Shown here piece after piece: positions 6,001 to 17,812 of a stretch of DNA of 17,812 nucleotides; the first letter of the stretch is position 1; each line of letters begins with the position of its first letter. The stretch comes from a bacterium (lineage in GTDB: Bacteria > UBA9089 > JASEGY01), in contig JASEGY010000014.1 of NCBI GenBank assembly GCA_030019105.1, positions 4,018 to 21,829 on the forward strand, given 5' to 3'. The position numbers and the translations under genes were made by a program. Under the pieces are notes generated by a model, which was not told where the DNA came from, did no database searches, and worked only from the letters and a program-made list of their open reading frames with translations.

Positions 6001-6877
6001 AGTAGAGGTAAATATTAATATTTATGAGCCGCAAGCGACTATCGAGGCTGATGGAAGCGCGACCGGCGGGGCCTTAGTCAGATTGCTTAACTTTTACCAC
6101 GAAGTTGGCCCTCAGACTGATAAATGGGATGGCCGGAATATGACGGGTAACCGGGTGGAGGAAGGTATCTATCCCTTTATCATTACGGCGGAGATTCCAG
6201 AGATGCAGATATGGACAAGGGGTCATATCGCCGTCTCCTGGGTGGAAGAACCGGTTGGCCCAGAGGATATCACTAAGCCGGTAATTGTCTATACCATTCC
6301 GTCTGATGGCGTTGCCCTGGCTACTTATATTTCAAAAGTCTCGGCTTACTTGCAGGATGAAGGCGGGTCAGGGCTAGATCTGGTGGCTTCAAGTATCAGC
6401 CTGCGTGACTCAAGCGGAGGCGCCATTAGTGGGACCAAAGAAACAGATGCCGCCGGAACAGTAACCCTTCGTCTTTACAGTGAACTGAGCAACGCGGGTA
6501 AATATACCATGGAAGTGACAGCCATAGATAAGGCCGGTAATCAGGCGACAAAGGCGGTTCAATTTACCTTGACTGAGGAAGCGGTAAGCGCGCTGGGCAT
6601 CCAGGAGGTCTATTCTTATCCTAATCCAGCTAAAAAGCAGAACCCTAATATTCACTATAAGCTGCCTTCTGCCGCTGCCGTGACCATTAATATCTTTACC
6701 CTGATGGGTGATCTGGTGAAAACGATTGAACTCGGATCGCAGGAAGCCGGAGAGAAGTCTCAAGAATGGGATATCAAGAATGATGACGACGACCTGGTAA
6801 GCTCCGGGGTTTATATCTATACTATTGAAGCGGCCGGCATGGATACGGTGAAAGGGAAGATGATAGTTATTCGGTGA
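2..6877 (+). CDS. Giant multidomain secreted protein (FN3, FlgD-like, Ig-like, type IX sorting-like C-terminus), 5' partial
   Basis: The frame is open from base 2, before the first ATG at 167, so the real start lies upstream of the window; 2291 residues are visible. About eight fibronectin III repeats (residues 1-730) share the patterns PPSxLxA, LSW, TYNVYR and YYYxVTAVD. A module with FlgD-like WDGxxxxGxxxPNGxY motifs follows (730-1125), then an Ig-like domain ending in AVDNAGNQ (1126-1233). The same order is repeated: three FN3 (1234-1530), FlgD-like module (1531-2085), Ig-like domain (2085-2195). The last ~93 residues (YSYPNPAKK, LMGDLVKTI, SSGVYIYTIEA, KGKMIVIR) resemble the type A sorting domain of type IX secretion cargo and also FlgD_ig; the two families are related in shape. 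The likely role is a cell-surface or secreted adhesive or structural protein. No enzyme domain is visible. A PorV-like gene lies just downstream. Domain types are secure; the export route is inferred. Confidence 0.9.
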   Translation, partial: PDTDYTDTTTVDGTTYYYAVRAVENWPTPPCPCPSALSDTASATSVYPPSAPANLMAVNNMGPIDLSWSAVATGIGTITYNIYRNDTSTIVRSGETNTLWTDSATDDGLTYFYWVTTVKTVDPDTTESPFSSEASDISNYPPPAPTGVAAGTVGRAINISWNTVSGMVYNVYRGTSSGVTKASPKIVTEIPGTSFLDTGVSVGQTYYYVVTSVDPNDAPADPARESDISSEVSATSIFTPPSNLTAANAKGPISLSWTGTSGLGTTTYNVYRNDTPSFPAAPPLVPGITGTTYLDEATFDRVTYYYWVSARDSSDGLESGQSGMAQATALYPPPTPSGLETTDKDSQGRPLSRQVRLIWDGVTLEGEAVTYRVYRHTSSPVPVDSAHRVATQLQNPGYTDNPPADEIPYFYRVTAFTSYRGESNPTNETVGVSHFIPPSSLEAENDKGRINLSWEATRGRGIITYNVYRDTSFGVTTDTANLVKSGLWGTTWSDGNTVDQVTYYYVVTAVDLADGAESSISNEASAKAIYPAPPTVPSDLATKTEKRKIILTWTASQLRGGSEGPVTYRVYRSQTKLMEVNDTNLLIQGLTTTTYPDFDVENKVTYWYVVTAVDESSSLVSKPGGPEMGISFFVPPSDLKATVLTKEGEEGQIKLEWTKTEGIGLITYNVYRNGILKVSGSGRIDTKWTDIDTANNAQYCYEVTAVDSFDNLESDPSNLSCATSYHKQSVSSITVFPTTIDYESNGPGTSPNRLEYTTITLDVNAGPTDSEKNVSTVKKLKVEIVDEGVDETAAVLEFYGLESGPFSFNWDGTWTEAKECGWIKHNSDYSVTAQVFNHNDDESLKIETGPVIEVDVVHVQGDVKIEYQDAGDMPVAHVLPVQFDYRLTKDAYVTFRFWNTNNTVDELGDDVLVKTTVHETPRPGELADRDFRNEDIWDGKGDDGRIVPNGIYRVTIDAIENRVNPATDRAYGWPGGLRPATVALDILRILDLRVTGISADNSLAEISYILSGSGFAAGGTGGGMDVALNIYKPGTTVDADGNCTDAKGNAVDTASVLVKSFTFSRDLGRNAEYWDGRDEKGGQLPNGVYVFTLMAKDTYGNLALDDKGNDGILHGNIPVDRTSHQTPGDITKPEVASTQPADGEVVSFSISQVSAVLKDEDGGSGPDPKKSTITLLGPGGREIPANKSDNGLNTIRLQFEEQTETGTYTIRIVAVDNAGNQSPPVDARFILSDVFLPPANLTAATTMEGNIKLEWQAAVSQGKVTYRIYRDTRSDVSKESELMDSGITTTAWVDTNVRSRTKYYYIVTAFDLEGNESDPSNMATSEKVIVLPRPTNLTAKCVNRIIQLNWDLFMEEEWQGSQSLPYNIYRHTGLPVPVDEDHLISAGTLVPQFTDIDIENGVTYYYVVTVLFTETNEESSPSNTAGATSVFLPPTGLTAVSLKEEGQEGAIRLTWQPTTGRGTITYNIYGDTSPVETVDSGYLLQTGVATTQWTDPATINGGKYYYLVTAVDPYDKLESDPSNQASAISYHRQRINLTAVNPLIDFELGGMPTFAVILLDIVNGPAKKVEITITDKREDKEAAKFNLYDVNSSRTVEVTTPQVMTNVGDNTNYSFASIWDERKKPVIAVKGIPVSETTYTVNYMSGTVTFKAPKSAADLVTVTGITYSSGAVAWDGTWLEGKEKGIKHNSYDSYYEAMAKITNYNGDAVEGEGVPIRVDVVHIQGVKLEYQTIGDASPAYVPPYKITYALTKDAFVTIEIYDRKDMSLVKTIVHETPHPGESLNRSMTNTYAWDGKDSSGRSVPNGVYRFVIKAQEFRDEPTDRAIWASAEGIAVDVLRILDVSAKSITSENPLAEINYTLTGPGFGGDGTSGGKVTINIYTPGTLIDTYGNVSKGELIRTITGFRSQGTNTETWDGRGPKGKFLDSGIYPFTITAEDGFGNLAVDAEGNDGPIHGSISVNREPAEIRILNLSVKGISAVGDRAEISYTLEGKGLDATGGVEVNINIYEPQATIEADGSATGGALVRLLNFYHEVGPQTDKWDGRNMTGNRVEEGIYPFIITAEIPEMQIWTRGHIAVSWVEEPVGPEDITKPVIVYTIPSDGVALATYISKVSAYLQDEGGSGLDLVASSISLRDSSGGAISGTKETDAAGTVTLRLYSELSNAGKYTMEVTAIDKAGNQATKAVQFTLTEEAVSALGIQEVYSYPNPAKKQNPNIHYKLPSAAAVTINIFTLMGDLVKTIELGSQEAGEKSQEWDIKNDDDDLVSSGVYIYTIEAAGMDTVKGKMIVIR

Positions 6878-6894
6878 AGTACCGATGTTGCAAC

Positions 6895-7037
6895 TATAGT
6901 GCTTAAGAAAAAGATTTTGGGGTTGGAGTTTAGGCTTTAGCCTTTCATAAATAATGAAATCCTAAAGGATTAACTCCAAGAGTTGAACACCCTGTCTTGA
7001 ATTCGCTTACCTCAAAAATATTATCTTAAAAGCTATA
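6895..7037 (-). mobile_element. MITE-like element, copy A
   Basis: This 143-bp non-coding stretch is the reverse complement of 12389-12542, with high identity apart from an 11-bp gap and short diverged patches. The ends are imperfect inverted repeats starting TATAG, then TTAAGA, then a T-rich run and GGT. The centre holds an imperfect inverted repeat from GGAGTTTAGGCTTTAGCC to the matching AACTCC end at about 6977. It carries no ORF. The TA-rich ends would suit a TA target site as in IS630/Tc1-mariner derivatives, but no clean target duplication can be fixed. It fills most of the gap between the giant gene and the small membrane-protein operon. Confidence 0.8.
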
Positions 7038-7040
7038 TAG

Positions 7041-7046
7041 TATAAT
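7041..7046 (+). promoter_or_regulatory. Possible -10 box at the edge of MITE copy A
   Basis: TATAAT lies three bases outside the MITE end and six bases before the ATG at 7052. No good -35 box sits at 17 bp. If it is used, transcription would start almost on the ATG, giving a leaderless message, which agrees with the lack of a Shine-Dalgarno sequence for that gene. The evidence is weak. Confidence 0.25.
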
Positions 7047-8277: not shown

Positions 8278-8283
8278 GTAATA

Positions 8284-8352
8284 GAAGTAAGAAGTAAGAA
8301 GTAAGAAGTAAGAAGTAAGAAGTAAGAAGTAAGAAGTAACTTCTAACTTCTG
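8284..8352 (+). repeat. Period-7 array (GAAGTAA x8) with inverted partner
   Basis: Eight perfect tandem copies of GAAGTAA (8284-8339) are followed at once by ACTTCTAACTTCT (8339-8351). That pairs with the end of the array (AGAAGTAAGAAGT) with one mismatch, so the transcript can form a hairpin just ahead of the pilO ribosome-binding site (AGGAGA, 8357-8362). It lies between porV and pilO. Confidence 0.95.
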
Positions 8353-8366
8353 ATTTAGGAGAAGAG

Positions 8367-8951
8367 ATGGACTGGCGAAGAAATCAATCTTTAGTAATTG
8401 GGATATTGGGCGGGATAGTTTTATGTGTATTTGCCTACTTTGCTTATATGCACAAGCCTTTGGGCGTAGCCAGACCTGATTGGTGGCAGTTTGCCATTAG
8501 GATTGATAATTTAGAAAAACAACTTAATCAAAAGAGGATTAAACTGGAAGAGGCTGAGCGGGTAGCTCAAAGATTGCCGCAGCTTAAAGAGCGTCATGAA
8601 TTGCTTCAGGAGGAGTTGGCTTACGCTCATGAGAAAATGCCTAAGGAGAAGGAAATGCCGGAGCTGCTCAGGCGTGTAACTGAAGCGGCTGACCAGAATG
8701 ACCTGGATATTTATCTCTTTCATCCGGAGAAGATTGAGCCTAAGGAGACTTATGATGAGATACCGATTAAGATGGAGCTAACGGGAAATTATCATAATCT
8801 GGGTTCTTTCCTGGCTCAGGTAGGGAGCTTGCCGAGGATAGTAACACCTAAGAGACTCAAGATTGAGGAAGAAAAACCAACGCCGGAAAATGCTTATGCT
8901 ACTATTAAGTCACAGTTAATTATTAGCACTTTTGTCTTCAGAGAAAAATAA
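8367..8951 (+). CDS. pilO: Type IV pilus inner-membrane scaffold protein PilO
   Basis: This 194-residue protein has the PilO layout: a short cytoplasmic N-terminus (MDWRRN), one membrane helix (residues 9-27, LVIGILGGIVLCVFAYFAY) and a periplasmic coiled coil (about 45-95, rich in Lys/Glu with leucine spacing). A ferredoxin-like C-terminal domain follows, with the family motif in which a sequence near IPIKMELTGNYHNLGSFLAQ leads to a conserved strand and LPRIV. PilO normally pairs with PilN and holds PilP in the pilus alignment complex. Start: AGGAGA (8357) five bases before the ATG. pilM and pilN, which usually precede pilO, are absent; porV and a period-7 array stand there instead. pilP and pilQ follow after a 500-bp repeat-filled gap. 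Confidence 0.9.
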   Translation: MDWRRNQSLVIGILGGIVLCVFAYFAYMHKPLGVARPDWWQFAIRIDNLEKQLNQKRIKLEEAERVAQRLPQLKERHELLQEELAYAHEKMPKEKEMPELLRRVTEAADQNDLDIYLFHPEKIEPKETYDEIPIKMELTGNYHNLGSFLAQVGSLPRIVTPKRLKIEEEKPTPENAYATIKSQLIISTFVFREK

Positions 8952-8954
8952 ATT

Positions 8955-8987
8955 GGTAGTCTGGTAGTCTGGTGGTCTGGTGCCTGG
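8955..8987 (+). repeat. Period-8 array, left arm (GGTAGTCT x3)
   Basis: GGTAGTCT, GGTAGTCT and GGTGGTCT run in tandem directly after the pilO stop, then decay into GGTGCCTGG. The first 19 bases are exactly complementary to 9406-9424, so the whole repeat-filled pilO-pilP gap is bracketed by this inverted pair. Confidence 0.85.
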
Positions 8988-9039
8988 TCAACTGGTACAG
9001 CGCGGCATAAGTTCTCCACTGGTTTTGACAACCAGAGAA

Positions 9040-9177
9040 GTAACCGTTCACTCCCCCCCTCTGCCAGACGTCATTTCTATAGAACAGGCATGGACGTGAA
9101 GGCAGTAAAGTTAAGCGGTTACTCTCTTTCCCTCTACTTCTTCGCCTCATAAAAGGGAGGGGGGAGTGAACGGTTAC
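9040..9177. mobile_element. MITE with 19-bp perfect terminal inverted repeats and 8-bp target duplication
   Basis: The left end GTAACCGTTCACTCCCCCC (9040-9058) is exactly the reverse complement of the right end (9159-9177). The element is flanked by the direct repeat CCAGAGAA at 9032-9039 and 9178-9185, a textbook insertion footprint. The 138-bp interior has no credible ORF. Ends beginning GTAA with 8-bp duplications are the known habit of IS66-family elements, so this is probably a non-autonomous IS66-type derivative. It landed at the edge of the GAAACC palindrome at 9183. Confidence 0.88.
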
Positions 9178-9182
9178 CCAGA

Positions 9183-9214
9183 GAAACCAGATTTTTTGAA
9201 AGAACATGGTTTCT
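9183..9214 (+). repeat. Degenerate copy of the GAAACC palindrome
   Basis: GAAACCAG, a T-rich centre and TGGTTTCT form a 32-bp imperfect palindrome. It matches 12621-12652 and 15769-15800 at 26 of 32 positions by my alignment. The MITE at 9040-9177 inserted against its left edge. Confidence 0.7.
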
Positions 9215-9249
9215 GAAACTGGTGAACAACTTCCGCCAACGTGTAATAG

Positions 9250-9392
9250 GTATCCTCTTCAAATCTATTGGTGTATCTGGTTGTAGGTTGTAGGTTGTAG
9301 GTTGTAGGTTGTAGGTTAACCGTCACACCAGCGAACCTACAACCTACAACCTACAACTTACAACAGACACCCATTAAATTTGAAGAGGATAC
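9250..9392. mobile_element. MITE with period-7 hairpin core and 8-bp target duplication
   Basis: The ends GTATCCTCTTCAAAT (9250-9264) and ATTTGAAGAGGATAC (9378-9392) are perfect 15-bp inverted repeats. The direct repeat TGTAATAG flanks them at 9242-9249 and 9393-9400. Inside, 5.6 copies of GGTTGTA (9279-9317) face about 4.4 copies of the complement AACCTAC (9334-9364) across a 16-bp spacer. Nearly the whole 143 bp can fold into one hairpin. No ORF. The 8-bp duplication and GTA start recall the neighbouring element, but the end sequences differ. Confidence 0.88.
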
Positions 9393-9405
9393 TGTAATAG
9401 TATTT

Positions 9406-9424
9406 ACCAGACTACCAGACTACC
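9406..9424 (-). repeat. Period-8 array, right arm
   Basis: ACCAGACTACCAGACTACC is the exact reverse complement of 8955-8973. It lies 28 bases before the pilP ATG and closes the bracket around the gap. Confidence 0.85.
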
Positions 9425-9452
9425 TGTTACCAATTTTGGAGTGAGCAAGACT

Positions 9453-9989
9453 ATGCTGAAAGAACTGACTATTTGTCTTAGCCTGTTTACCTTCATCCTT
9501 ATAGTTGGATGTGCGGAAGAAGAAGCGCCCCTGTCCCGAAGGGCACGAGGAATTGTTAAAGATAAGGCAACGGCGCCGGCCATCCTTGGCCGGGAAATCA
9601 TCCGGCCGGCTCCCTCTCTTTATATGTACCGGCCGTTGAATCGTCGTGATCCTTTTAAGGCCCTGATTGCCCAGAGGGAGAAAATAACGGTTACGGCAAC
9701 AAAACCTAAACCAGCCCAAAAACTTCCTGAGCCAGTGAAAAGAGAGCTTGATATCAGAGACCTTACCCTGGATGGTATCATTTGGGATGCAGAGAATGGA
9801 GTTGGCATAGCCCTTCTTCGGAATGGAGAGAACTATGGATTTATCCTGAAAGAAGGGAGATTGTTGGGCAGGAATCAGAAGCGCATGGAAGGTATTTATG
9901 GACGAGTAGTCGGAGAAGAAGTGCGACTTGTTCAGGATCAAGCCAAAGTAACCCTTAAGGTTGGGGAGTCAGGTCTAAAAAACAAATAA
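9453..9989 (+). CDS. pilP: Type IV pilus assembly lipoprotein PilP
   Basis: This 178-residue lipoprotein has a hydrophobic leader ending in the lipobox IVGC (Cys20 of the chosen start), then a proline- and charge-rich linker. The PilP signature PLNRRDPFKAL and a small beta domain with LTLDGIIWDAENGVGIALL follow. PilP is anchored in the inner membrane or envelope and links the PilN-PilO dimer to the secretin PilQ. A GTG at 9441 is in frame, but it overlaps the GGAG that would serve as ribosome-binding site, whereas that GGAG sits well spaced for ATG 9453; I therefore use 9453. pilQ starts 24 bases after the stop, in the usual pilP-pilQ order. Confidence 0.87.
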   Translation: MLKELTICLSLFTFILIVGCAEEEAPLSRRARGIVKDKATAPAILGREIIRPAPSLYMYRPLNRRDPFKALIAQREKITVTATKPKPAQKLPEPVKRELDIRDLTLDGIIWDAENGVGIALLRNGENYGFILKEGRLLGRNQKRMEGIYGRVVGEEVRLVQDQAKVTLKVGESGLKNK

Positions 9990-10013
9990 TAAAAAGGAGT
10001 GGAAGGAGGAGAG

Positions 10014-12308
10014 ATGATCAGGTTGAATAAAAACTGGTTAATAACCGGATTAATTTTAATATTTCTGATGGGTTTTAAAGGGATAGGGTGGTCCCAGGTA
10101 GATATTTTTCACCTGACCGATATCAGGGTGGAAGATTCGGGTAACGAAACCAGGGTGATTATTGTCACTGATAAACCGGTGGGAAGATACTATCCTTTTA
10201 CTTTGACCGAGCCTCCTTCTATTGTGGTTGATTTATATGAAACAGTATATGCTGTCCCTTCGAAGAAAAAGATAGGAAAGGGCGGTGTGATTGAGGAAAT
10301 ACGTGGGGATCAATATGAAGAGCGAACAGCCCGGGTGGTCCTGGCAGTGACTGAGTTGGTTCCTTATCAGGTGAGTAAACGGGATAATGAAATAGTTCTT
10401 GATATTACCAATCCTTATTATAAGGAAAAAGCAGCCGCGGCTGCCCCCAGAATAACAGGGATGATGTTTGATGAGAGCAAAAATGAGGTCATTATTTCGG
10501 CTACCACGGCAGTAGAATATAACCATTTCAAGAAGGAAGACCCTCCACGAGTGGTGGTGGAATTTACGGGAGTAGATGTTGATTGGAAAGATAAAGTTGT
10601 TGAGGTGGAAAAGGGTGGTGTGACCCAGATCAGGGTCAGTCGCCTTCAGGATAAACCGGTTAAAAAGGTAGGGGTCGTGATCGACCTGAAGGAAAGTTTA
10701 CCTTATTGGGTTTATAGCCGGGCCAATCAGACCATTGTAGCGATAGAGACGGGAGCCGAAGCTGAGGAGAAAATTTCGCCTGAGATACCTGAGATAGCAG
10801 AAGAGGAAGGGGCGACTGAAAAGAAATCTTTGCCTGCCTGGGTAAAACCGGATGAAGCAGTTGTTCCTCCGACTGAGAAAGCGGCCACTGAAAAGAAAGC
10901 CCCGTCGGTGCCTGACTGGGTAAAGCCGGATAAAGCAGTTGTTCCTCCGAGTAAAAAAGCGGCCACTGAAAAGAAAGTCCTGCCGGCGCGGGTAAAGCCG
11001 GACAAACCGGATAAAGCAGTTGTTCCTCCGAAGAAAGAACTTCCGATAGAAGAAGTAGTAAAGGAAGAAAAAGTAGTCATAGAGGGAAAAAAGCCTCTTA
11101 TTTCAATGGATTTCAGAGAGGCAGAGATAGGGGATGTGTTAAGGCTTATCTCTCATAAATCTGGGATAAATATTGTGGCCGGAAAAGAAGTGACGGATAA
11201 GGTTACCCTCAGACTGGAAGGGGTTACCTGGAGACAGACCCTGGATATGCTGACCAGGGCTTATGGTTATACCTACGTGGAAGAAGAGGGTATTATCCGG
11301 GTCGGTAAGGCCTTAGTTAAAGGAAAATTTACTACCCGGATATTTGATTTTGATTATGCTGATGCCAAAGAGATCGCTGATTCGATCAAGCCTCTTTTGA
11401 CTGAGAAAAAAGGGGATGATCCGGCTGGAGAATTGATCGTAGTGGAGCGGACAAATTCCATCGTTATTAATGATAATCCGGCTGTTATCGAACAGGCCGC
11501 CGACCTTATTGCCGGTCTGGATGTGAGAACCCCGCAGGTGATGATCGAGGCCAAGATCGTGGAAGTGACCCTGCGGGATTTTCAGGAGCTGGGGATTGAG
11601 TGGCAGAGTGAAGATGAGAAGGGCGCTGGAGAAAAGACCTGGGGAGGGGTAGGAGTTAGTCTGCCTGATAGAGTGACAGCCAGGGCTGCTGAAGAAGAAG
11701 AGAAGAAAATAACTGCCGCCGGACCGGGAACTATTACTAAAGATGAGCTGGCAAGCGGTAAAGGGAGTTTTTTTAGGATCGGAACTGTCAGGGGTGAGTT
11801 TAATATCGAGGCCAGATTAAATGCCTTAGTAGAAGACGCCAAGGCCGATATCCTGTCCAATCCGAGAATACTGGCCATAGATAACAAAGAAGCCAGGATA
11901 ATGGTTGGAGATGAATTTCCGATAAAGAAGGTAACGATAAGTGAAGGGAAAATTACAGAGTCGATAGAATATAGGGACCTGGGAATAAAACTTTATGTTA
12001 CTCCCAAGATCAATTCGGATGGCTACGTGGTTTTAAAGGTTCATCCTGAGGTGAGTGCATTTACGACGTATGCCCTCAATGGCAACCCTATTTTTTCCAC
12101 GCGTGAGACTGAATCTGAGATCCTGGTTAAAGACGGAGAGACGATTGTTATTGGCGGCTTGATCCAGAATGAAAAGAAAGAGACTATTTCTAAGGTGCCG
12201 ATTTTGGGTGATATACCTCTGCTGGGGTTGCTCTTTAAAAATAGAAGCGTGTCAGGACAGAAGACGGAGCTTCTTATCTTTATTACCACTACTATTAAGA
12301 GAGGCTGA
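10014..12308 (+). CDS. pilQ: Type IV pilus secretin PilQ
   Basis: This 764-residue outer-membrane channel carries a signal peptide (residues 1-28, ending GIGWSQ). Two AMIN domains (about 29-134 and 145-246) bind peptidoglycan in this family. A Lys/Pro/Glu-rich repetitive linker follows (250-359), then a secretin/TonB N-terminal domain (359-435, MDFREAEIGDVLRLIS), an N1 domain (439-504, RIFDFDYADAKEI) and the secretin core (505-760). The core holds LSNPRILAIDN, GGLIQ and VPILGDIPLLGLLF, the classic secretin marks. It forms the gated pore through which a pilus leaves the cell. A GTG at 9999 is in frame, but AAGGAGGA (10003-10010) lies inside that extension and points to ATG 10014. The stop overlaps a short stem (CTGAAG/CTTCAG, 12305-12320). 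Confidence 0.93.
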   Translation: MIRLNKNWLITGLILIFLMGFKGIGWSQVDIFHLTDIRVEDSGNETRVIIVTDKPVGRYYPFTLTEPPSIVVDLYETVYAVPSKKKIGKGGVIEEIRGDQYEERTARVVLAVTELVPYQVSKRDNEIVLDITNPYYKEKAAAAAPRITGMMFDESKNEVIISATTAVEYNHFKKEDPPRVVVEFTGVDVDWKDKVVEVEKGGVTQIRVSRLQDKPVKKVGVVIDLKESLPYWVYSRANQTIVAIETGAEAEEKISPEIPEIAEEEGATEKKSLPAWVKPDEAVVPPTEKAATEKKAPSVPDWVKPDKAVVPPSKKAATEKKVLPARVKPDKPDKAVVPPKKELPIEEVVKEEKVVIEGKKPLISMDFREAEIGDVLRLISHKSGINIVAGKEVTDKVTLRLEGVTWRQTLDMLTRAYGYTYVEEEGIIRVGKALVKGKFTTRIFDFDYADAKEIADSIKPLLTEKKGDDPAGELIVVERTNSIVINDNPAVIEQAADLIAGLDVRTPQVMIEAKIVEVTLRDFQELGIEWQSEDEKGAGEKTWGGVGVSLPDRVTARAAEEEEKKITAAGPGTITKDELASGKGSFFRIGTVRGEFNIEARLNALVEDAKADILSNPRILAIDNKEARIMVGDEFPIKKVTISEGKITESIEYRDLGIKLYVTPKINSDGYVVLKVHPEVSAFTTYALNGNPIFSTRETESEILVKDGETIVIGGLIQNEKKETISKVPILGDIPLLGLLFKNRSVSGQKTELLIFITTTIKRG
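10815..11037 (+). repeat. In-frame tandem repeat in the pilQ linker
   Basis: Three degenerate units of about 72-78 bases start ACTGAAAAGAAA at 10815, 10887 and 10965. They encode variants of a segment with WVKPDKAVVPP and KKAATEKK. The unit is a multiple of three, so copy changes alter linker length without a frameshift. The linker sits between the AMIN domains and the periplasmic ring domains. Confidence 0.85.
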
Positions 12309-12316
12309 AGTAAGCT

Positions 12317-12344
12317 TCAGGTGTCAGGCGTCAGGTATCAGGTT
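12317..12344 (+). repeat. Period-7 array (TCAGGTR x4)
   Basis: TCAGGTG, TCAGGCG, TCAGGTA and TCAGGTT run in tandem nine bases after the pilQ stop. The same word, TCAGGTA, is reused at the 3' end of coaBC (17723-17735). No long inverted partner is seen here. Confidence 0.8.
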
Positions 12345-12388
12345 TCGCCTGGGATACAACTCGCAACTGTTCCGAAAAGGTTGAAAGA

Positions 12389-12542
12389 TATAGCTCTTAA
12401 GATAAATATTTTGGGGTAAGCGAATTCAAGATAGGCTATGTAGCTTTCGGAGTTAATCCTTTAGGATTTCATTAGTTATGAAAGGCTAAAGCCTGAACTC
12501 CAAAGGATAGCCAACCCCAAAATCTTTTTCTTAACCACTATA
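12389..12542 (+). mobile_element. MITE-like element, copy B
   Basis: This 154-bp stretch matches copy A (6895-7037) in opposite orientation, so the pair brackets the porV-pilOPQ block. It keeps an 11-bp segment lost from A (CCAAAGGATAG, about 12500-12510). Part of that segment, GGATAGCC, can pair with the other side of the core, so B looks the more intact copy. The centre holds two 24-nt arms (12449-12472 and 12478-12501) that match as an inverted repeat at 19 of 24 positions. Each arm is also a small hairpin by itself (AATCCT/AGGATT and AGGCT/AGCCT). It is non-coding and lies in the 392-bp gap between pilQ and pgpA. Confidence 0.82.
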
Positions 12543-12586
12543 GAATAATCCGTCTTTAAGTATAAATTCACGGGATAACGTAAACG

Positions 12587-12610
12587 TAGGGGAGGCTTTG
12601 TCCTCCCCTA
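12587..12610 (+). repeat. GC-rich hairpin
   Basis: TAGGGGAGG and CCTCCCCTA form a perfect 9-bp stem with a six-base loop (CTTTGT). TTGCTTT follows, which is only a poor T-run, so it may be a weak terminator for the pil block or a remnant of a small repeat element. Confidence 0.6.
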
Positions 12611-12617
12611 TTGCTTT

Positions 12618-12654
12618 AAAGAAACCAGGTTTCTTCAAGAAACCTGGTTTCTTT
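12618..12654 (+). repeat. GAAACC palindrome, 37 bp perfect
   Basis: Two 18-base arms are perfect reverse complements around a single C at 12636. Each arm is itself a near-palindrome (AGAAACC A GGTTTCT), so either one long or two short hairpins can form. The core 32 bases are identical to 15769-15800. It ends 46 bases before the pgpA ATG. Confidence 0.9.
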
Positions 12655-12700
12655 GACCTTTGACGCGATATTGGTTCCTTGCCATTCACCAGTTGCCCGG

Positions 12701-13153
12701 ATGAACTTTTTAATTAGACTTATTGCTACAGGTTTTTACACCGGTTACGCTCCTTTTGCTTCAGGAACAGTAGGAAGTGTCGTTGGGATTCTGCTATATT
12801 TGTGCTTCAATTTGCCTGGCAGCCGGCTATATTTGTTGAGTCTGGCGATCTGTCTTATCGGGGGGATATGGATTTGCAGCCGGGCAGAGGAGATTTATAA
12901 CGAAAAAGATTCATCCCTGATTGTCTGGGATGAGGTTACCGGGTATCTGGTGGCTATGTTTGGCCTGGCCCCCACTTTATCTAATATTATGATTGCCTTT
13001 GTCATATTCAGAATTATGGATATTGTAAAACCGTATCCCATTCACCTCACCGAACGACTACCAGGTGGCTGGGGGATAATGTTAGATGATGTGCTGGCCG
13101 GCCTTCTAACTAATGTTACTATTCGAGTGGGAGTAATATTAGTCGGGCCTTGA
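12701..13153 (+). CDS. pgpA: Phosphatidylglycerophosphatase A
   Basis: This 150-residue integral membrane enzyme removes the phosphate from phosphatidylglycerophosphate to make phosphatidylglycerol. Family motifs are complete: TGFYTGYAPFASGTVGS near the start, WDEVTGYLVA, FRIMDIVKPYPI and LPGGWGIMLDDVLAG, with the acidic metal-binding residues in WDE and LDD. Length is normal for PgpA. The frame is open upstream to a TTG at 12653, inside a palindrome, but the family N-terminus starts right at ATG 12701, so I use that; no strong ribosome-binding site precedes it. The last codons and the stop (VGP, TGA) lie inside the left arm of an inverted repeat (13140-13168). The context is repeats on both sides, with no functional partner adjacent. 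Confidence 0.92.
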   Translation: MNFLIRLIATGFYTGYAPFASGTVGSVVGILLYLCFNLPGSRLYLLSLAICLIGGIWICSRAEEIYNEKDSSLIVWDEVTGYLVAMFGLAPTLSNIMIAFVIFRIMDIVKPYPIHLTERLPGGWGIMLDDVLAGLLTNVTIRVGVILVGP

Positions 13154-13287
13154 TCATCGTTTGGGCCACTCAAGTTGAAAATGGGAAATGGGAAATTAGG
13201 AAATGGGAAGTATCTTGATTTACTTCCTAATTTCCCATTTCTTACTTCCTATTTTTAAATGGCCGAAACGATGAGCAAGGCCGACTA
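13140..13287. mobile_element. Inverted-repeat element with period-7 hairpin core, overlapping the pgpA 3' end
   Basis: The left arm 13140-13168 (TAGTCGGGCCTTGATCATCG, then TTTGGGCCA) matches the reverse complement of 13260-13287 with two mismatches and one indel. Inside, a GGGAAAT-type period-7 run (about 13178-13210) contains an 18-bp arm (13185-13202, GAAATGGGAAATTAGGAA) exactly complementary to 13224-13241. The plan of outer inverted ends around an inner period-7 hairpin is the same as at 9250-9392. No target duplication could be identified. It fills the pgpA-nucleotidyltransferase gap and could act as a two-way terminator. Confidence 0.75.
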
Positions 13288-13306
13288 CTGAGTAAGGGGT
13301 GATTGA

Positions 13307-13939
13307 ATGGAGATAAATTGCGGAGTACTTATCGCTGGAGGAAAGGGTGTGCGGGCCTACCCGGCTACGTCATTTATTACCAAGCCTATGTTGGAAGTAG
13401 CAGGCAAGCCCTTGATTCAAAGGAATGTAGAAGTTCTACGTGATAGTTTGGGACTTAGAGAGATCTACATTGTTATTGGCTACTTAGGAGAACAGATCAA
13501 GGGCTGTTTAGGGGACGGTTCTAAATTTGGGGTAAATATTACCTACATCCAGGATAATGTAATGAAAGGACTGGCCGAGGGACTTTATTGGGTCAGGGAT
13601 TATGTAAAGGGACCTTTTATAACTGTTCTGGGAGACGAGCTCTATATCGGTTCTAATCATAAAGCAATAAGGGCCTTTAATTGGAATGAGTTTAGCGCTG
13701 TTTGTGCTTTAAAGGAAACCAATCTTCCTCAGGAGATCAAGAAGAATTATGGGGTGAAGATAGAGGGAGACCGGATCCTTTCCTTGATTGAGAAACCAAC
13801 TACTGTGACCAACAAATATCTTGGATGCGGCACTTATATCTTTTCTCCCCTTAACGAGGAAGTTTATTGTCCGGTTGCTTTTTATGATTTTTGTGGCCTA
13901 TGGCTGTGGGCCACCTTCATCTCCCACCCCTGCGCCTGA
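13307..13939 (+). CDS. Sugar-nucleotidyltransferase-like protein, 3'-truncated hybrid
   Basis: Residues 1 to about 182 are a nucleotidyltransferase fold of the NTP_transferase (RfbA/GlmU-like) family. The nucleotide-binding loop is LIAGGKGVRAYPATSFITKP, followed by MLEVAGKPLI, a metal-site LGDE and the late motif LSLIEKP leading to LGCGTYIFSP. Such enzymes activate a sugar phosphate with an NTP to make a nucleotide sugar. After about 13853 the family likeness ends. The remaining 28 residues (cysteine- and tryptophan-rich, ending HPCA) are out-of-frame reading of a lipoprotein-like segment belonging to the next gene. The C-terminal part of the family is therefore missing and the protein is probably inactive or altered. 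Start: AAGGGGTGA before ATG 13307. The substrate cannot be told. Confidence 0.75.
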   Translation: MEINCGVLIAGGKGVRAYPATSFITKPMLEVAGKPLIQRNVEVLRDSLGLREIYIVIGYLGEQIKGCLGDGSKFGVNITYIQDNVMKGLAEGLYWVRDYVKGPFITVLGDELYIGSNHKAIRAFNWNEFSAVCALKETNLPQEIKKNYGVKIEGDRILSLIEKPTTVTNKYLGCGTYIFSPLNEEVYCPVAFYDFCGLWLWATFISHPCA

Positions 13940-14015
13940 AACGCCTGCACCCACATCTGCACTGCCTGCAGAGGGGCTATCGCCGTCTGCCCCACCAGAG
14001 AAAGGAGGTCAAACA
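13854..14015 (+). pseudogene. Probable lost 5' end of a ybhB-like lipoprotein (signal peptide and Pro/Ala linker)
   Basis: In the ybhB reading frame this stretch encodes TRKFIVRLLFMIFVAYGCG, a basic start, a hydrophobic core and a cysteine at codon 13905. A linker rich in Pro, Ala, Thr and Ser follows, up to the domain at 14016. That is the layout of a lipoprotein leader and tether, but no ATG exists at its head; upstream, the same frame runs into nucleotidyltransferase sequence. I infer that the original start codon was lost at the junction. The lipobox (A-Y-G-C) is not ideal. Translation from TTG 13821 or ATG 13884 cannot be excluded. Confidence 0.4.
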
Positions 14016-14477
14016 ATGCCTTTTGAACTGAGAAGCACCGCATTTACCCCAGGGGAGCCGATTCCCACTAAGTATACCTGTGACGGTGAGGATATCTCGC
14101 CGCCGTTGCAGTGGAGCGATCCACCCCGGGATACTCAAAGCTTTGCCCTCATCTCCGATGACCCGGACGCGCCGGCAGGCGACTGGGTTCACTGGGTGCT
14201 CTACAACCTGCCGGCTAAAACCCGTACTTTACCGGAGGACGTCCCCCCTGACGGTGACCTGCCGGACGGCAGCCGACACGGCAAGAACAGTTGGCGGCGG
14301 CTGGGCTATGGCGGCCCCTGTCCGCCCGGCGGCACTCATCGCTACTTCTTTAAACTCTATGCCCTGGATACCGTACTCAACTTAGCCGCCGGCGCAAGTA
14401 AGGAACAGTTGCTCCAGGCAATGAAGGGACATATCCTGGCCAGGACAGAGTTAATGGGGATATACTCCAGGCAGTAG
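14016..14477 (+). CDS. YbhB/YbcL family (PEBP, Raf kinase inhibitor-like) protein
   Basis: This 153-residue protein is of normal length for the bacterial phosphatidylethanolamine-binding-protein fold. Marks are FTPGEPIPTKYTCDGEDISPPLQW, SFALISDDPDAPAGDWVHWV, LYNLP, GKNSWRRLGYGGPCPPGGTH and YFFKLYALD, with the conserved Asp/His ligand-pocket residues (DPDAP, HWV, GTHRY). The biochemical role in bacteria is unsettled. Start: AAGGAGGT at 14002-14009 is ideally placed for ATG 14016, although the frame is open further upstream through a lipoprotein-like leader. The gene is visibly richer in G and C than its neighbours (for example CCGGACGCGCCGGCAGGCGA), suggesting transfer. It follows a truncated nucleotidyltransferase and is followed by a pair of competing stems. 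Confidence 0.88.
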   Translation: MPFELRSTAFTPGEPIPTKYTCDGEDISPPLQWSDPPRDTQSFALISDDPDAPAGDWVHWVLYNLPAKTRTLPEDVPPDGDLPDGSRHGKNSWRRLGYGGPCPPGGTHRYFFKLYALDTVLNLAAGASKEQLLQAMKGHILARTELMGIYSRQ

Positions 14478-14490
14478 CGGACAAGTATTT

Positions 14491-14531
14491 ACCTTCCCGA
14501 AGGCCCGAAAGCTTCGAGCTTTCGGGAAGGT
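14491..14531 (+). other. Two mutually exclusive stem-loops
   Basis: ACCTTCCCGAA (14491-14501) pairs perfectly with TTCGGGAAGGT (14521-14531). CCCGAAAGCT (14504-14513) pairs perfectly with AGCTTTCGGG (14517-14526). Both need 14521-14526, so only one can form at a time. No T-run follows. It could be a weak terminator or an attenuator-like switch ahead of the next gene. Confidence 0.5.
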
Positions 14532-14561
14532 CGGATCAAAGGAGGTAAATTTTAGAATAAG

Positions 14562-15719
14562 ATGTCATCACTGGATAAAATTATCGAGTCCGGAGAGAAT
14601 TTTTATACGGAGTTTAAGCGAGAGATGGAACATCCCGATAAGATAGCGGCTGAGATAGTTGCTTTTGCCAATGTTGAGGGGGGGATGATCATATTTGGAG
14701 TAGATGATGAGGGGGAAATCTATGGTGTTGAAGAACCGAATCAACTTGAACAACGAATCAACAATATCCTGCGGACTAATTGTATCCCACCCTTAACCGG
14801 GGATATTGAAAAAAAGCAGCTAACCGGCAAGACTATTCTGATTCTTCATATCCCTAAAGGCAGTGATAAACCATACAAAACCAACAGAGGAGTATATTAC
14901 GAAAGGGTGGGAACATCCAGGCGAGAGGTAACCAGGGAGGAATTGGCCAGACTGTTTCAACAGGCAGGAATGCTCCATTATGATATCTTGCTGGTAGAAG
15001 ACACCTCACTGGAGGATTTGGATTTAACCAAGGTTCGGGAGTATTTCAGGAAATTTGTCGATATTGATATAGATAGACTGGATGTTCCGCTCTCTCTTTT
15101 TTTGAAGAACGCCAAGATACTGGGCAAAAAAGAAGACAGATTCCTGGCCACGGTAAGCGGCATCCTGATGTTTGGCAAGCAGCCTCAAGATGCCCTGTAT
15201 CAAAGCGGTATCTCACTTGCCAGATATGAAGGTACAGTGATATCAGAGAGGCTTCTGCATCACCAGCATATCACTGGCACTCTTCCTGAGCTTATTACCA
15301 AGGCTAATAGTCTGGTTAATGAATACAATCGGACATCTTCCATCATTAAGGGTATGAAACGGATAGAATCAAAGAAGTACCCTGACGTGGTTTTGAGAGA
15401 GGCTGTTATTAATGCGGTGGCACATAGAAATTACAGCCTATCGGGTAAGCGTATCCGGATATTTATCTTTGATGATCGGATAGAGGTGCGAAGCCCTGGC
15501 AGGTTGCCTAATACAGTTACTTTGGAATCTATAAAGATAAGTGATTCCTTTGCCAGAAATCCTGTTCTGGTCAAATACCTGAATAATTATGGATTTATCG
15601 ATGACCTTGGTCGAGGGGTTCCCCTTATGATACATAAAATGGAGGAAATAGGCGGGGAGACGGAACTCGAGATCGTAGGTGAAGAGTTCATTGTGACCCT
15701 ACGAGCGCCGGAAGATTAA
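14562..15719 (+). CDS. AlbA_2 (Schlafen-like) and GHKL ATPase domain protein
   Basis: This 385-residue protein has an N-terminal AlbA_2/Schlafen-type nucleic-acid-binding domain (about 10-130) with YTEFKREM, IVAFANVEGGMIIFGVDDEG and GVYYERVGTSRREVTREEL. A C-terminal HATPase_c_4-type ATP-binding domain (about 270-380) follows, with the N-box REAVINAVAHRNYS and the glycine loop in DDLGRGVPLM. Such proteins are annotated as RNA-binding or transcriptional regulators and are often found in defence or mobile contexts; the exact activity is not established. It ends straight after the ATPase domain, without the C-terminal winged helix of longer relatives. AAAGGAGGT (14538-14546) lies 15 bases before the ATG, unusually far, and an in-frame TAG at 14553 rules out an earlier start. 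A BrnT-like toxin pair follows. Confidence 0.88.
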   Translation: MSSLDKIIESGENFYTEFKREMEHPDKIAAEIVAFANVEGGMIIFGVDDEGEIYGVEEPNQLEQRINNILRTNCIPPLTGDIEKKQLTGKTILILHIPKGSDKPYKTNRGVYYERVGTSRREVTREELARLFQQAGMLHYDILLVEDTSLEDLDLTKVREYFRKFVDIDIDRLDVPLSLFLKNAKILGKKEDRFLATVSGILMFGKQPQDALYQSGISLARYEGTVISERLLHHQHITGTLPELITKANSLVNEYNRTSSIIKGMKRIESKKYPDVVLREAVINAVAHRNYSLSGKRIRIFIFDDRIEVRSPGRLPNTVTLESIKISDSFARNPVLVKYLNNYGFIDDLGRGVPLMIHKMEEIGGETELEIVGEEFIVTLRAPED

Positions 15720-15737
15720 AGGCGGTTGGTAGTTATC

Positions 15738-15832
15738 CTTTACACTTTTTCCTGAGATTAGGGCGAGAGAAACCAGGTTTCTTCAAGAAACCTGGTTTCT
15801 GGGTCTGTGCGCTTCACCCCAAAAGTGTAAAG
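15738..15832. repeat. Short inverted-repeat element enclosing a GAAACC palindrome
   Basis: The ends CTTTACACTTTT (15738-15749) and AAAAGTGTAAAG (15821-15832) are a perfect 12-bp inverted pair. Between them lies a GAAACC palindrome (15768-15800, two 16-base arms around one C), identical over 32 bases to 12621-12652. No target duplication is clear. It occupies most of the 165-bp gap before the toxin gene. Confidence 0.75.
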
Positions 15833-15884
15833 TTGCTATTTGGGCGCTTTGAAACGATGCCCCATTTTGTTTCAAGGAGACGGA

Positions 15885-16169
15885 ATGAAGATTGAAGGTG
15901 TCATATGGAATAGAGATGTGGTGGACAAACTTGCTTTCAAGCACCAGGTTGAAACTGATGAGGTCGAGGAGGTGCTCGATAGCAAACCAAAGTTCCGCTT
16001 CGTGGAAAAAGGAGAACAAAAGGGCGAAGATGTATACCTGGCTCTGGGACAAACCGATGCGGGACGGTACCTGGCTGTACTCTTCATCTACAAGAAGACG
16101 AAAGAAGCATTGATATTGAGTGCCAGAGACATGGAGAGAAAGGAGAGAAGGCAATATGACAGAAAGTAA
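15885..16169 (+). CDS. BrnT-like (DUF497) type II toxin
   Basis: This 94-residue protein fits the BrnT pattern: an N-terminal strand with IWNRDVVDKLAFKH and a middle DEVEEVLD. A strand in GRYLAVLFIYKK and the C-terminal hallmark ILSARDMERKERRQY follow. BrnT toxins are small RNases that slow growth by cutting RNA and are held by a DNA-binding partner. The match is by motif only, and the sequence is divergent. Start: AAGGAGA (15874-15880) right before ATG 15885; the frame is open further up but without a better start. The gene overlaps the CopG-type antitoxin by 14 bases in the usual toxin-first order, so the two are co-translated. The pair may repress its own promoter, as known for the family. 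Confidence 0.75.
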   Translation: MKIEGVIWNRDVVDKLAFKHQVETDEVEEVLDSKPKFRFVEKGEQKGEDVYLALGQTDAGRYLAVLFIYKKTKEALILSARDMERKERRQYDRK

Positions 16170-16419
16170 GCTTAGGTCCATACCCCATTTTGCCTCCCTC
16201 GATGAGCTTGTGGAGTTTTTTGAAACCCACGATTTGGGTGAATACTGGGAACAAATGCCCGAAGCCCACTTCGAGGTGGACATCAAGAGACGGACGCACC
16301 TGTTCGCTCTTGACGAGGAGATTGCCGATAAGCTGACCGAAATCGCTTTATCGAAGCAAGTCCCGTCGGCGGTGCTTATTAATTCCTGGTTGAGGGAGAA
16401 GCTTCTGGCACAAGCATAG
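16156..16419 (+). CDS. CopG-family antitoxin
   Basis: This 87-residue protein matches the CopG_antitoxin type: an N-terminal IPHFASLDELVEFFETHDLG and YWEQMPEAHFEV that wrap the toxin. A short ribbon-helix-helix-like end follows (RTHLFALDEEIADKLTEIA, then VPSAVLINSWLREKL). It should neutralise the BrnT-like partner and bind the operator of the pair. An in-frame ATG at 16120 would add 12 residues lying wholly inside the toxin gene. ATG 16156, behind GAGAGAAGG, gives the standard family N-terminus and a 14-base overlap, so I prefer it. Confidence 0.82.
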   Translation: MTESKLRSIPHFASLDELVEFFETHDLGEYWEQMPEAHFEVDIKRRTHLFALDEEIADKLTEIALSKQVPSAVLINSWLREKLLAQA

Positions 16420-16435
16420 ATTAGAAGAGGACATA

Positions 16436-17758
16436 ATGCTCAAAGGAAAAGAGGTTATTTTAGGAGTTACAGGTAGCATTGCGGCCTATAAGTCGGCTGA
16501 GATTGTCCGGGAGTTAATCAAGCAAGGGGCCAAAGTCCAGGTAGTGATGACTAAAGCGGCGACGGCCTTTATCACCCCTCTCAGCTTGCAGACACTTTCC
16601 GGCCGGACGGTAATCACCGATCTATTCTCTTCCCCATCAGCCTGGGAGATAGAACATGTATCTCTGGCTGAACGGGCTGATCTTATCCTGATTGCCCCGG
16701 CTACGGCTAATATCATCGGCAAGATCGCCGGCGGGATTGCCGATGATATGCTTTCAACCCTTGTTCTGGCCGCTCGCTCGCCCATCCTGATTGCCCCGGC
16801 GATGAATGAGGCCATGTACGAAAACCCCATCCTGAAGGCCAATATTGAAAAACTCAAAAACCATGGGTTTTGCTTTATTGAGCCTGAAGAAGGAGACCTG
16901 GCCTGTGGAAAGAAGGGCAAAGGAAGGCTGGCCTCAATTGAGACAATAATAAGGGGTGTCTTAACTGCAATCCGAAATCCGCAATCCACGGAACAGTCCG
17001 CAGTCCACAGTCCACAGTCCACAGTAGGCAGTCCGCAGGCCATCGACCGTGGACTATTCCGCAATCCGAAATCCGAAATCCGAAATCGGAAGATACTGAT
17101 TACGGCCGGACCTACTCAGGAGCCAATAGATCCGGTGCGCTACATCAGCAATCCATCCTCCGGCCGGATGGGTCTGGCCTTAGCCGAAGCAGCCCACCGG
17201 CAGGGAGGAGAGGTGATCGTAGTTACCGGCCCGATTGCCCTTGAGCCACCCCCTGGTGTAACCACCATCAGGGTACAAACGGCCCAACAGATGCGCGAGG
17301 CGGTCATGGAACATTTCTCCTCGGTTGATATTTTTATTTCGGCTGCTGCTGTCTCTGACTACCAACCTGAAAAATCAGCTAAAGAGAAGATCAAGAAGAC
17401 TAAGGATCGCTTAACTCTGGAACTGGTAAAGACGCCGGATATTCTGGCTGAGGTGGGTCAAGTCAAAGGCGAGAACCAAATTGTAGTTGGTTTTGCGGCC
17501 GAAACAGAGGATCTGGAACAAAACGCCCGGAAGAAACTGGAGGAGAAGGATCTTGATCTCATCGTGGCCAACGATTTAACCCGGGAAGGGGCCGGCTTTG
17601 GAGGCGAGACAAACATGGTGACTATGATTACCAGGAGTGGTGAAGTAATTAAGACGCAGAAGTTGCCCAAAATCGAGGTGGCTGAAGCCATACTTGAGCA
17701 AGTAAGCAGGATTAGTAAGCGTTCAGGTATCAGGTCTCAGCCAAAACCTGATACCTGA
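16436..17758 (+). CDS. coaBC: Bifunctional phosphopantothenoylcysteine decarboxylase / phosphopantothenate-cysteine ligase
   Basis: This 440-residue cytosolic enzyme makes 4'-phosphopantetheine for coenzyme A in two steps. The CoaC half (1-176) is an FMN-binding decarboxylase with GVTGSIAAYK, the catalytic His74 (IEHVSLAERAD), the PAMNEAMYENP motif with Asn124, and Cys157 in LACGKKGKGRLA. The CoaB half (218-428) is the CTP-dependent ligase with ITAGPTQEPIDPVRYISNPS, SSGRMG, AAVSDYQP, KTPDIL, FAAET and DLIVANDL. All key residues are present. The oddity is the linker, residues about 177-217, coded by a period-7 array, which makes the protein about 40 residues longer than a typical CoaBC (near 400). 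The tail (RSGIRSQPKPDT) and stop lie in another inverted repeat. Start: GAAGAGGA before ATG 16436. Confidence 0.95.
   Translation: MLKGKEVILGVTGSIAAYKSAEIVRELIKQGAKVQVVMTKAATAFITPLSLQTLSGRTVITDLFSSPSAWEIEHVSLAERADLILIAPATANIIGKIAGGIADDMLSTLVLAARSPILIAPAMNEAMYENPILKANIEKLKNHGFCFIEPEEGDLACGKKGKGRLASIETIIRGVLTAIRNPQSTEQSAVHSPQSTVGSPQAIDRGLFRNPKSEIRNRKILITAGPTQEPIDPVRYISNPSSGRMGLALAEAAHRQGGEVIVVTGPIALEPPPGVTTIRVQTAQQMREAVMEHFSSVDIFISAAAVSDYQPEKSAKEKIKKTKDRLTLELVKTPDILAEVGQVKGENQIVVGFAAETEDLEQNARKKLEEKDLDLIVANDLTREGAGFGGETNMVTMITRSGEVIKTQKLPKIEVAEAILEQVSRISKRSGIRSQPKPDT
16967..17090 (+). repeat. Period-7 arrays inside coaBC
   Basis: GCAATCC, GAAATCC, GCAATCC (16967-16987) lead into AGTCCRC-type units (about 16995-17036). 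A partly inverted stretch follows (GTGGACTATTCC, about 17048-17060), then GCAATCC and GAAATCC units (17061-17088). Translated, it gives runs like SPQST and RNPKSEIRN. The array falls exactly between the two enzyme domains and keeps the frame. Confidence 0.9.
17724..17757. repeat. Inverted repeat spanning the coaBC stop codon
   Basis: CAGGTATCAGGT (17724-17735) and ACCTGATACCTG (17746-17757) are a perfect 12-bp inverted pair with a 10-base loop. The word TCAGGTA is the same as in the array after pilQ (12317). The TGA stop (17756-17758) is supplied by the repeat. It may double as a terminator, though no T-run follows. Confidence 0.85.
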
Positions 17759-17794
17759 TATACTCAGCACGGTCATAAATAGTGATTTTGAATA

Positions 17795-17812
17795 GGTTGT
17801 AAGTTGTAGGTT
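17795..17812 (+). repeat. Start of a GGTTGTA period-7 array, cut by the window end
   Basis: GGTTGTA, AGTTGTA and GGTT run to the last base. The word is the same as in the MITE core at 9279-9317, so a related element probably continues beyond the window. Confidence 0.7.

Follow-up and report, generated by a model that had tools for sequence, protein, structure and literature searches.

How do tandem arrays keep a constant unit length while the sequence of the unit changes from one array to the next? The question is raised by a 17,812-nt stretch of a bacterial draft genome of the GTDB lineage UBA9089 (assembly GCA_030019105.1, contig JASEGY010000014.1; C109:4018-21829, hereafter the window), which holds arrays of period 7 with different words, some of them facing their own reverse complement. 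A preliminary description, made from the letters of the window, had taken the constant period and drifting word to suggest an active copying process, with slippage plus hairpin templating as an example. Our preferred reading is that the arrays are heptamer microsatellites and that some of them serve as the hairpin body of short, non-autonomous elements resembling miniature inverted-repeat transposable elements (MITEs); dispersal of these elements and turnover of 7-nt units would then probably account for the arrays.

For dispersal, elements with a common frame of terminal inverted repeats (TIRs; GTAACCGTTCA, GTATCCTCTTCAAAT and perhaps GTATCTTCTCAATA) would insert into intergenic gaps and other repeats, bringing an array and its inverted partner along. 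Being too small to hold a transposase, they would be moved by one encoded elsewhere. For turnover, 7-nt units would be gained, lost and substituted inside the element, in each arm independently, presumably by strand slippage with a preference for seven set by replication. The observations counted for this reading are TIRs with 8-bp target duplications, small elements that combine such a duplication with a period-7 segment, an excess of array clusters close to a TIR, several words carried within one TIR frame, element lengths that form a ladder in steps of seven, and the PilO–PilP gap, which measures 489 bp in the genome of the window and less than 35 bp in a second species. A network of words one substitution apart was also observed, and the sister species has mostly other words.

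Genomes and samples

The genome holding the window (G000; 4,337,204 bp over 1053 contigs) was compared with a second genome of the same genus (G001; 96% complete). Exact arrays were counted by period in an unpicked G000 sample of 60 stretches (531,618 bp), chosen without regard to repeats. The mismatch-tolerant period, word, hairpin, TIR and placement counts were based on a larger G000 set of 763,199 bp, comprising the unpicked sample and 20 loci (231,581 bp), nearly all chosen for a GGTTGTA-bearing contig. The samples are biased toward long contigs, and gene models are plain open reading frames (ORFs). Cluster totals vary with the merging rule, being 204 (G000) and 200 (G001) for placement and enclosure, and 203 and 195 for hairpins and TIRs; two of the 195 were left out of the hairpin count for length, which therefore uses 193. 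Several G000 contigs (C65, C99, C112, C133, C148, C351) begin or stop inside GGTTGTA arrays; the assembly thus probably breaks at these repeats, and their counts are too low.

Period 7 against neighbouring periods

Exact arrays of at least three copies numbered 74 at period 7 in the unpicked sample, compared with 2, 2, 7 and 3 at periods 5, 6, 8 and 9, and three order-2 Markov controls yielded none at any period of at least 6. Eight period-8 arrays of this sample share the word ACCAGACT, which is that of the GGTAGTCT array of the window; period 8 is thus largely a single family. The mismatch-tolerant score returned 237 segments at lag 7 in G000 against 3, 30 and 29 at lags 6, 8 and 9, the 142 segments at lag 14 being a harmonic of lag 7. 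The corresponding figures for 1,013,228 bp of G001 were 255 against 2, 31 and 27, with one lag-9 and no lag-7 segment in its Markov control. No lag-7 segment was found in 16 loci of other named lineages (263,615 bp); in a small sample of four short stretches from the same phylum, G006 and G002 held one degenerate period-7 segment each and G013 and G018 none.

Period 7 therefore exceeds both the neighbouring periods and chance in the two genomes, as is characteristic of heptamer long simple sequence repeats. Whether it is commoner than periods 6, 8 and 9 had been fixed beforehand as a check, and genome-wide this was so in both G000 and G001. Tandem Repeats Finder recovered the window arrays at the places given in the preliminary description.

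Elements with terminal inverted repeats and 8-bp target duplications

Part of the arrays lie in small elements, missed by the preliminary description, which are bounded by facing TIRs. Facing pairs of GTAACCGTTCA, under which the window element at 9040-9177 (GTAACCGTTCAC...GTGAACGGTTAC) was counted, numbered 21 in G000 and 82 in G001, and those of GTATCCTCTTCAAAT and GTATCTTCTCAATA (GTATC TIRs) 13 and 7 in G000. An exact 8-bp duplication flanks 11 of the 13 GTATCCTCTTCAAAT pairs. For GTAACCGTTCA, the test was restricted to innermost pairs (19/21 in G000; 70/82 in G001, one of the 70 lying at a contig edge) and gave 9/19 and 30/69. Any other duplication length from 4 to 12 occurred at most once among the GTAACCGTTCA pairs, and the swap mean at 8 bp was 0. 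The target-site duplication is thus of fixed length, as in MITEs, and at 8 bp it rules out a candidate in which 7-bp target duplications leave heptamer footprints. The elements are also short and devoid of a transposase gene, with 19/21 (G000) and 73/82 (G001) GTAACCGTTCA pairs spanning at most 555 bp; two longer innermost G001 pairs contain other genes (by eye).

The cargo was counted in TIR pairs of up to 400 bp. A period-7 segment was present in 12 of 17 GTAACCGTTCA elements in G000, which carry AAATTGG, AACCGTG, ACCTGAT, AGCAGGC, other words or none, and in 27 of 67 in G001, which carry AGCATCG-like words or none; the GTATCCTCTTCAAAT elements contain AACCTAC, ACCCCTG or none, with a period-7 segment in 8 of 13. 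Seventeen elements (3 + 7 in G000, 7 in G001) combine a period-7 segment with an 8-bp duplication. That a word can recur at distant sites, as noted earlier, finds an explanation here, because part of the arrays ride in these elements: one word at many sites can reflect transposition, and neither convergent slippage nor selection has to be invoked. An 18-mer, GGTTGTAGGTTGTAGGTT, has 77 (overlapping) matches in G000; a search of 60 further genomes, a congeneric one included, gave no match.

At least one of the three TIRs lies within 200 bp of 57/203 clusters in G000 and 47/195 in G001, compared with about 10 and 11 for random placement, and the terminal inverted repeats typical of MITEs cover these clusters only. 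The remaining 146/203 and 148/195, for which no known TIR is found within that distance, head a series of results that weigh against MITE-like dispersal. Heptamer-free GTAACCGTTCA elements are many (5/17 in G000, 40/67 in G001), and the third TIR, GTATCTTCTCAATA, has an 8-bp duplication in 1/7 pairs. Enclosure of clusters by further, non-heptamer inverted arms is modest, with 13/204 in G000 (swap mean 2.9, maximum 7) and 9/200 in G001 (swap mean 4.5, maximum 10). Blocks without a repeated flank amount to 50/234 in G000 and 60/225 in G001, in a count where a flank may score as repeated merely through holding an inverted arm. Finally, the IS66 family (PF03050) is absent from both genomes, and no multi-copy transposase was recognised in the G000 and G001 samples, whole genomes not having been scanned for families beyond IS66. 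The arrays without TIRs may be decayed elements, members of other element families, in-place seeds, or arrays moved by something else.

Pure in-place growth would dispense with movement altogether: seeds of any word would grow by polymerase slippage with a preference for 7 nt, and similar words would re-arise. The arrays that lack a repeated flank fit this account, as do the steps of seven and the chance-level presence of arrays in orthologous gaps (both below), and two papers report that in many bacteria heptamers outnumber all other long simple sequence repeats, with the polymerase footprint as a guess at the reason (PMC4679880, PMC4692102). The TIRs and 8-bp duplications around arrays, the presence of one word across many copies of one element, and the zero lag-7 count in other lineages speak against it. 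We therefore regard growth in place as unlikely, though not far-fetched.

The heptamer array itself might instead be the spreading unit, entering gaps, genes and transposons alike and keeping its period while its words drift through a connected set, with TIR elements merely acquiring an array. Its traces would be the AATCCGC arrays among the G000 blocks without repeated flank (19 of 50), the arrays within reading frames (11/488 ortholog ORFs, CoaBC of the window included), and the spread of AATCCGC arrays over 8 of the 193 genomes that were searched (six of them further genomes, three outside the phylum of the window), a figure to be read against 2/193 for the reversed-pattern control. We give a self-spreading array a small chance. 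The three genomes outside the phylum (G052, G058 and G079) show 3 to 6 matches each.

Hairpins, arms and words

The statement that most arrays face their own reverse complement proved too strong as a rule, holding for a majority in G001 only, although the enrichment behind it is large. The hairpin score marked 70/203 clusters in G000 and 102/193 in G001, compared with 8/203 and 3/193 random stretches, so that inverted partners occur well above chance. A partner match of at least 9 nt within 150 bp was found for 45/151 arrays in G000 (word swap, 3.3%) and for 30/45 in G001 (word swap, 27%); the latter swap rate is high because the G001 words resemble one another, and the hairpin score was preferred there. 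Within the window, partners of at least 14 nt were listed for the GGTTGTA, GGGAAAT and GGTAGTCT arrays, and none for TCAGGTR (12317) or the arrays at 16967-17091; those of GAAGTAA and TCAGGTA (17724) are shorter than 14 nt (by eye).

Element copies differ in length by whole units. GGTTGTA is present in seven G000 GTATCCTCTTCAAAT elements, five of which measure 129, 129, 136, 143 and 150 bp, while the remaining two (174 and 302 bp) contain further inserted repeats. The G001 element was analysed over 30 fuzzy-pattern matches, a few of them composite or reversed and all retained. Its right arm, measured from the core to the right border, ranges from 21 to 168 nt and is a multiple of 7 in 29/30, and two residue classes take 28 of the 30 left arms.

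The same 30 matches were used to compare the two arms. The length of one arm does not correlate with that of the other (Spearman 0.16, p = 0.40; 0.24, p = 0.22 minus two outliers), and the two arms of a copy show no significant excess of similarity over arms drawn from different copies (permutation p = 0.155); arm co-evolution is accordingly not supported. Hairpin-templated copying, in which template switching rewrites one arm from the other and so makes and maintains the inverted partners, would be expected to leave the many hairpin clusters counted above and the few copies that mirror rare units in order (e.g. G001 c2:41702). It drew no support from either test, and arms that are independent in length and no more alike within a copy favour ordinary slippage, so we consider the templating part of the preliminary description very improbable. 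This inference concerns the behaviour of the arms after dispersal; the origin of the first inverted pair lies outside it.

Arrays of at least 2.5 copies comprised 55 words among 235 arrays in G000, led by AATCCGC (35) and AACCTAC (25), and 34 words among 213 arrays in G001, led by AGCATCG (73). Eleven words are common to the two genomes, with 2.3 expected (maximum 6 over 30 draws). A neighbour at one substitution exists for 53 of the 55 G000 words (30 random sets: mean 37, maximum 44) and for 31 of the 34 G001 words (random mean 15, maximum 22); inspection of word composition revealed no shared rule. This network above random, together with the few shared words, indicates that words drift and that the two species hold mostly different word sets. 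The constant period with a drifting word is accordingly borne out, unit number shifting by sevens between element copies.

Placement and comparison between species

Clusters avoid genes, as 41/204 lie mostly inside ORFs of at least 150 aa, which span 78% of the G000 sample. The lack of arrays in the first 8.2 kb of the window, remarked on earlier, is real and has this plain cause, since positions 2-6877 form one open frame. In G000, 31 clusters lie at -15 to 10 nt of stops (14.0 expected) and 26 lie 10-25 nt upstream of starts (8.7 expected), with 7/134 in divergent gaps. Such positions would suit functional cis elements under selection, such as terminators, mRNA 3' hairpins or translation control. 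The G001 placement is weaker and shifted, with 23 against 16.2 at -15 to 10 nt of stops and 25 against 14.3 at 25-50 nt, and among 96 orthologous gaps arrays were found in G000 only in 26, in G001 only in 11, in both in 8 and in neither in 51, where independence predicts 6.7 for both. Short-gap filling therefore fits better than conserved function, and a role as selected cis elements appears highly improbable.

The same chance-level sharing (8/96) means that same-site drift of the word between species is not borne out as a rule. Single sites with a different period-7 word in each species were found in the porin-PilO gap, where the orthologous G001 gap carries a different period-7 stretch, at one coding site (L115, L182) and, as judged by eye, 3' of PilQ. 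Median identity over 244 ortholog pairs of G000 and G001 is 77%, so that array turnover need not be fast.

Candidate mobilising enzymes

The element ends and 8-bp duplications resemble those of IS66-type elements; an IS66 transposase is nonetheless rejected as mobiliser, PF03050 being absent from both genomes. A reverse transcriptase, or a transposase associated with repetitive extragenic palindromes (REP; RAYT), might in principle make or spread the arrays, and G000 does show matches to Y1_Tnp (one) and to RVT_1 (three, of which two pass the cut-off). G001 has no match to either and an equally strong period-7 signal, which speaks against both as needed drivers and makes this explanation scarcely credible; the Y1 transposase that marks REP/RAYT systems thus has no match in one of the two array-bearing genomes. 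On G001 contig C4, a two-copy ORF beginning MEFLDVKTDFAFKKIFG, which seems to resemble Rpn/PD-(D/E)XK nucleases, has a TIR to its left at no more than 400 bp and may be a lead to the mobiliser.

Features along the window

The coordinates are collected in Table 1. A BLAST comparison of the window with the G000 sample returned 12 segments with at least two matches elsewhere, mainly intergenic, and nesting of inverted arms is clear from the inverted-repeat listing. The last GGTTGTA array is truncated, since the right edge of the window is also that of contig C109.

Table 1. Arrays, elements and target duplications in the window.
Feature	Position	Strand	Context and source
GAAGTAA array, 8.1 copies, then short inverted part (AACTTCT x2)	8283-8339 (feature to 8351)		porin-like/PilO gap; no TIR recognised; Tandem Repeats Finder
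GGTAGTCT array, period 8	8954-8981		left outer arm, PilO-PilP gap; Tandem Repeats Finder and inverted-repeat listing
8-bp target duplication CCAGAGAA	9032-9039 (left), 9178-9185 (right)		
Element, TIR GTAACCGTTCAC/GTGAACGGTTAC	9040-9177		no period-7 segment within; flanked on both sides by CCAGAGAA
8-bp target duplication TGTAATAG	9242-9249 (left), 9393-9400 (right)		
143-bp element, TIR GTATCCTCTTCAAAT/ATTTGAAGAGGATAC	9250-9392		encloses GGTTGTA hairpin; TGTAATAG on both flanks
GGTTGTA array, left arm, 5.6 copies	9279-9317	+	Tandem Repeats Finder
GGTTGTA array, right (inverted) arm	9334-9364	-	
Inverted partner of GGTAGTCT array	9405-9424		432 nt distant; 9406-9424 in the inverted-repeat listing
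TCAGGTR array (Tandem Repeats Finder word TCAGGTG)	12317-12343	+	directly past PilQ stop; no listed inverted partner of at least 14 nt
Dispersed palindrome, outer arms GGCCTTGATCATCG.../...CGATGAGCAAGGCC	13146-13282		AAATGGG hairpin within
AAATGGG array	13179-13209		Tandem Repeats Finder
AATCCGA and ACAGTCC arrays	16967-17091	+	CoaBC frame, linker between Flavoprotein and DFP domains
AATCCGA; ACAGTCC; TCCGAAA	16969-16987; 16993-17025; 17058-17091		Tandem Repeats Finder
TCAGGTA array and short inverted ACCTGAT part	17724-17760		end of CoaBC frame; ACCTGAT 17746-17760 by Tandem Repeats Finder
Second GGTTGTA array, start only	17795-17812	+	

Two further dispersed repeats were noted. An element of about 150 bp (TATAGCTCTTAAGATAAATATTTTGGGG.../...CCCCAAAATCTTTTTCTTAA) lies at 6888-7045 and 12385-12549 and has about 85 merged places in the 763 kb; other copies have heptamer arrays adjoining or within, and a TA duplication is suggested by eye. 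The short perfect hairpin AGAAACCAGGTTTCTT-AAGAAACCTGGTTTCT, at 12618-12654 and 15768-15800, has about 45 merged places in the sample and was found too as cargo within GTATCTTCTCAATA frames. Positions 13307-14477 hold a nucleotidyltransferase frame (PF00483) that continues into a PEBP-like gene (PF01161), with overlap of the two; a truncated gene fused by rearrangement, or a misassembly, may be the cause. A BrnT-type toxin gene (PF04365) is located at 15840-16420, and a small downstream frame may be its antitoxin (by eye).

Relation to known repeats

The elements resemble MITEs in being short, dispersed and mostly intergenic, with TIRs and target duplications of fixed length; they differ in that the body often consists of a heptamer array and the reverse complement that it faces, with unit number and word varying between copies. 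The small dispersed repeat (SDR) elements of Nostoc are said to be very small mobile hairpin elements that show nested insertions and often sit in minitransposons or in heptameric tandem repeats. Compared with descriptions of these and of the cyanobacterial short tandemly repeated repetitive (STRR) sequences, the present heptamers differ in being carried inside TIR elements that have 8-bp duplications. The preliminary description had named the STRR sequences as the closest parallel, a reasonable one as far as the repeats as such are concerned.

The GGGAATC heptamer repeats of Xanthomonas are reported to have heterogeneous units, to be intergenic, to vary in length and to form about 70 inverted pairs, with mainly one word and generally no association with mobile elements (Rehm et al. 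2015, PMC4692102). Heptamers, heterogeneous units and inverted pairs are thus common to both, whereas the present arrays show 55 words, chance-level site sharing and association with TIRs and target-site duplications. The TAACTGA direct repeats of Beggiatoaceae are likewise abundant intergenic heptamers, but a single word is favoured there, and words one substitution away from it seldom form repeats (MacGregor 2015, PMC4679880). Here, 53/55 words have a repeated neighbour, and the 55 and 34 words of the two genomes form a connected network instead of centring on one.

A search of the literature, covering few subscription journals, found no paper that links heptamer arrays with bacterial TIR elements. 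Heptamer simple sequence repeats and MITE-like elements are each of a known kind; their combination, as met here, is unusual and unmatched in the literature searched. Hairpin arrays inside tiny transposon-like elements illustrate a way for heptamer repeats to spread and to vary. One genome offers dozens of nearly identical element copies, bearing insertion marks, as replicate starting points, so that the gain, loss or substitution of a single 7-nt unit can be read per copy and slippage can be separated from hairpin templating.

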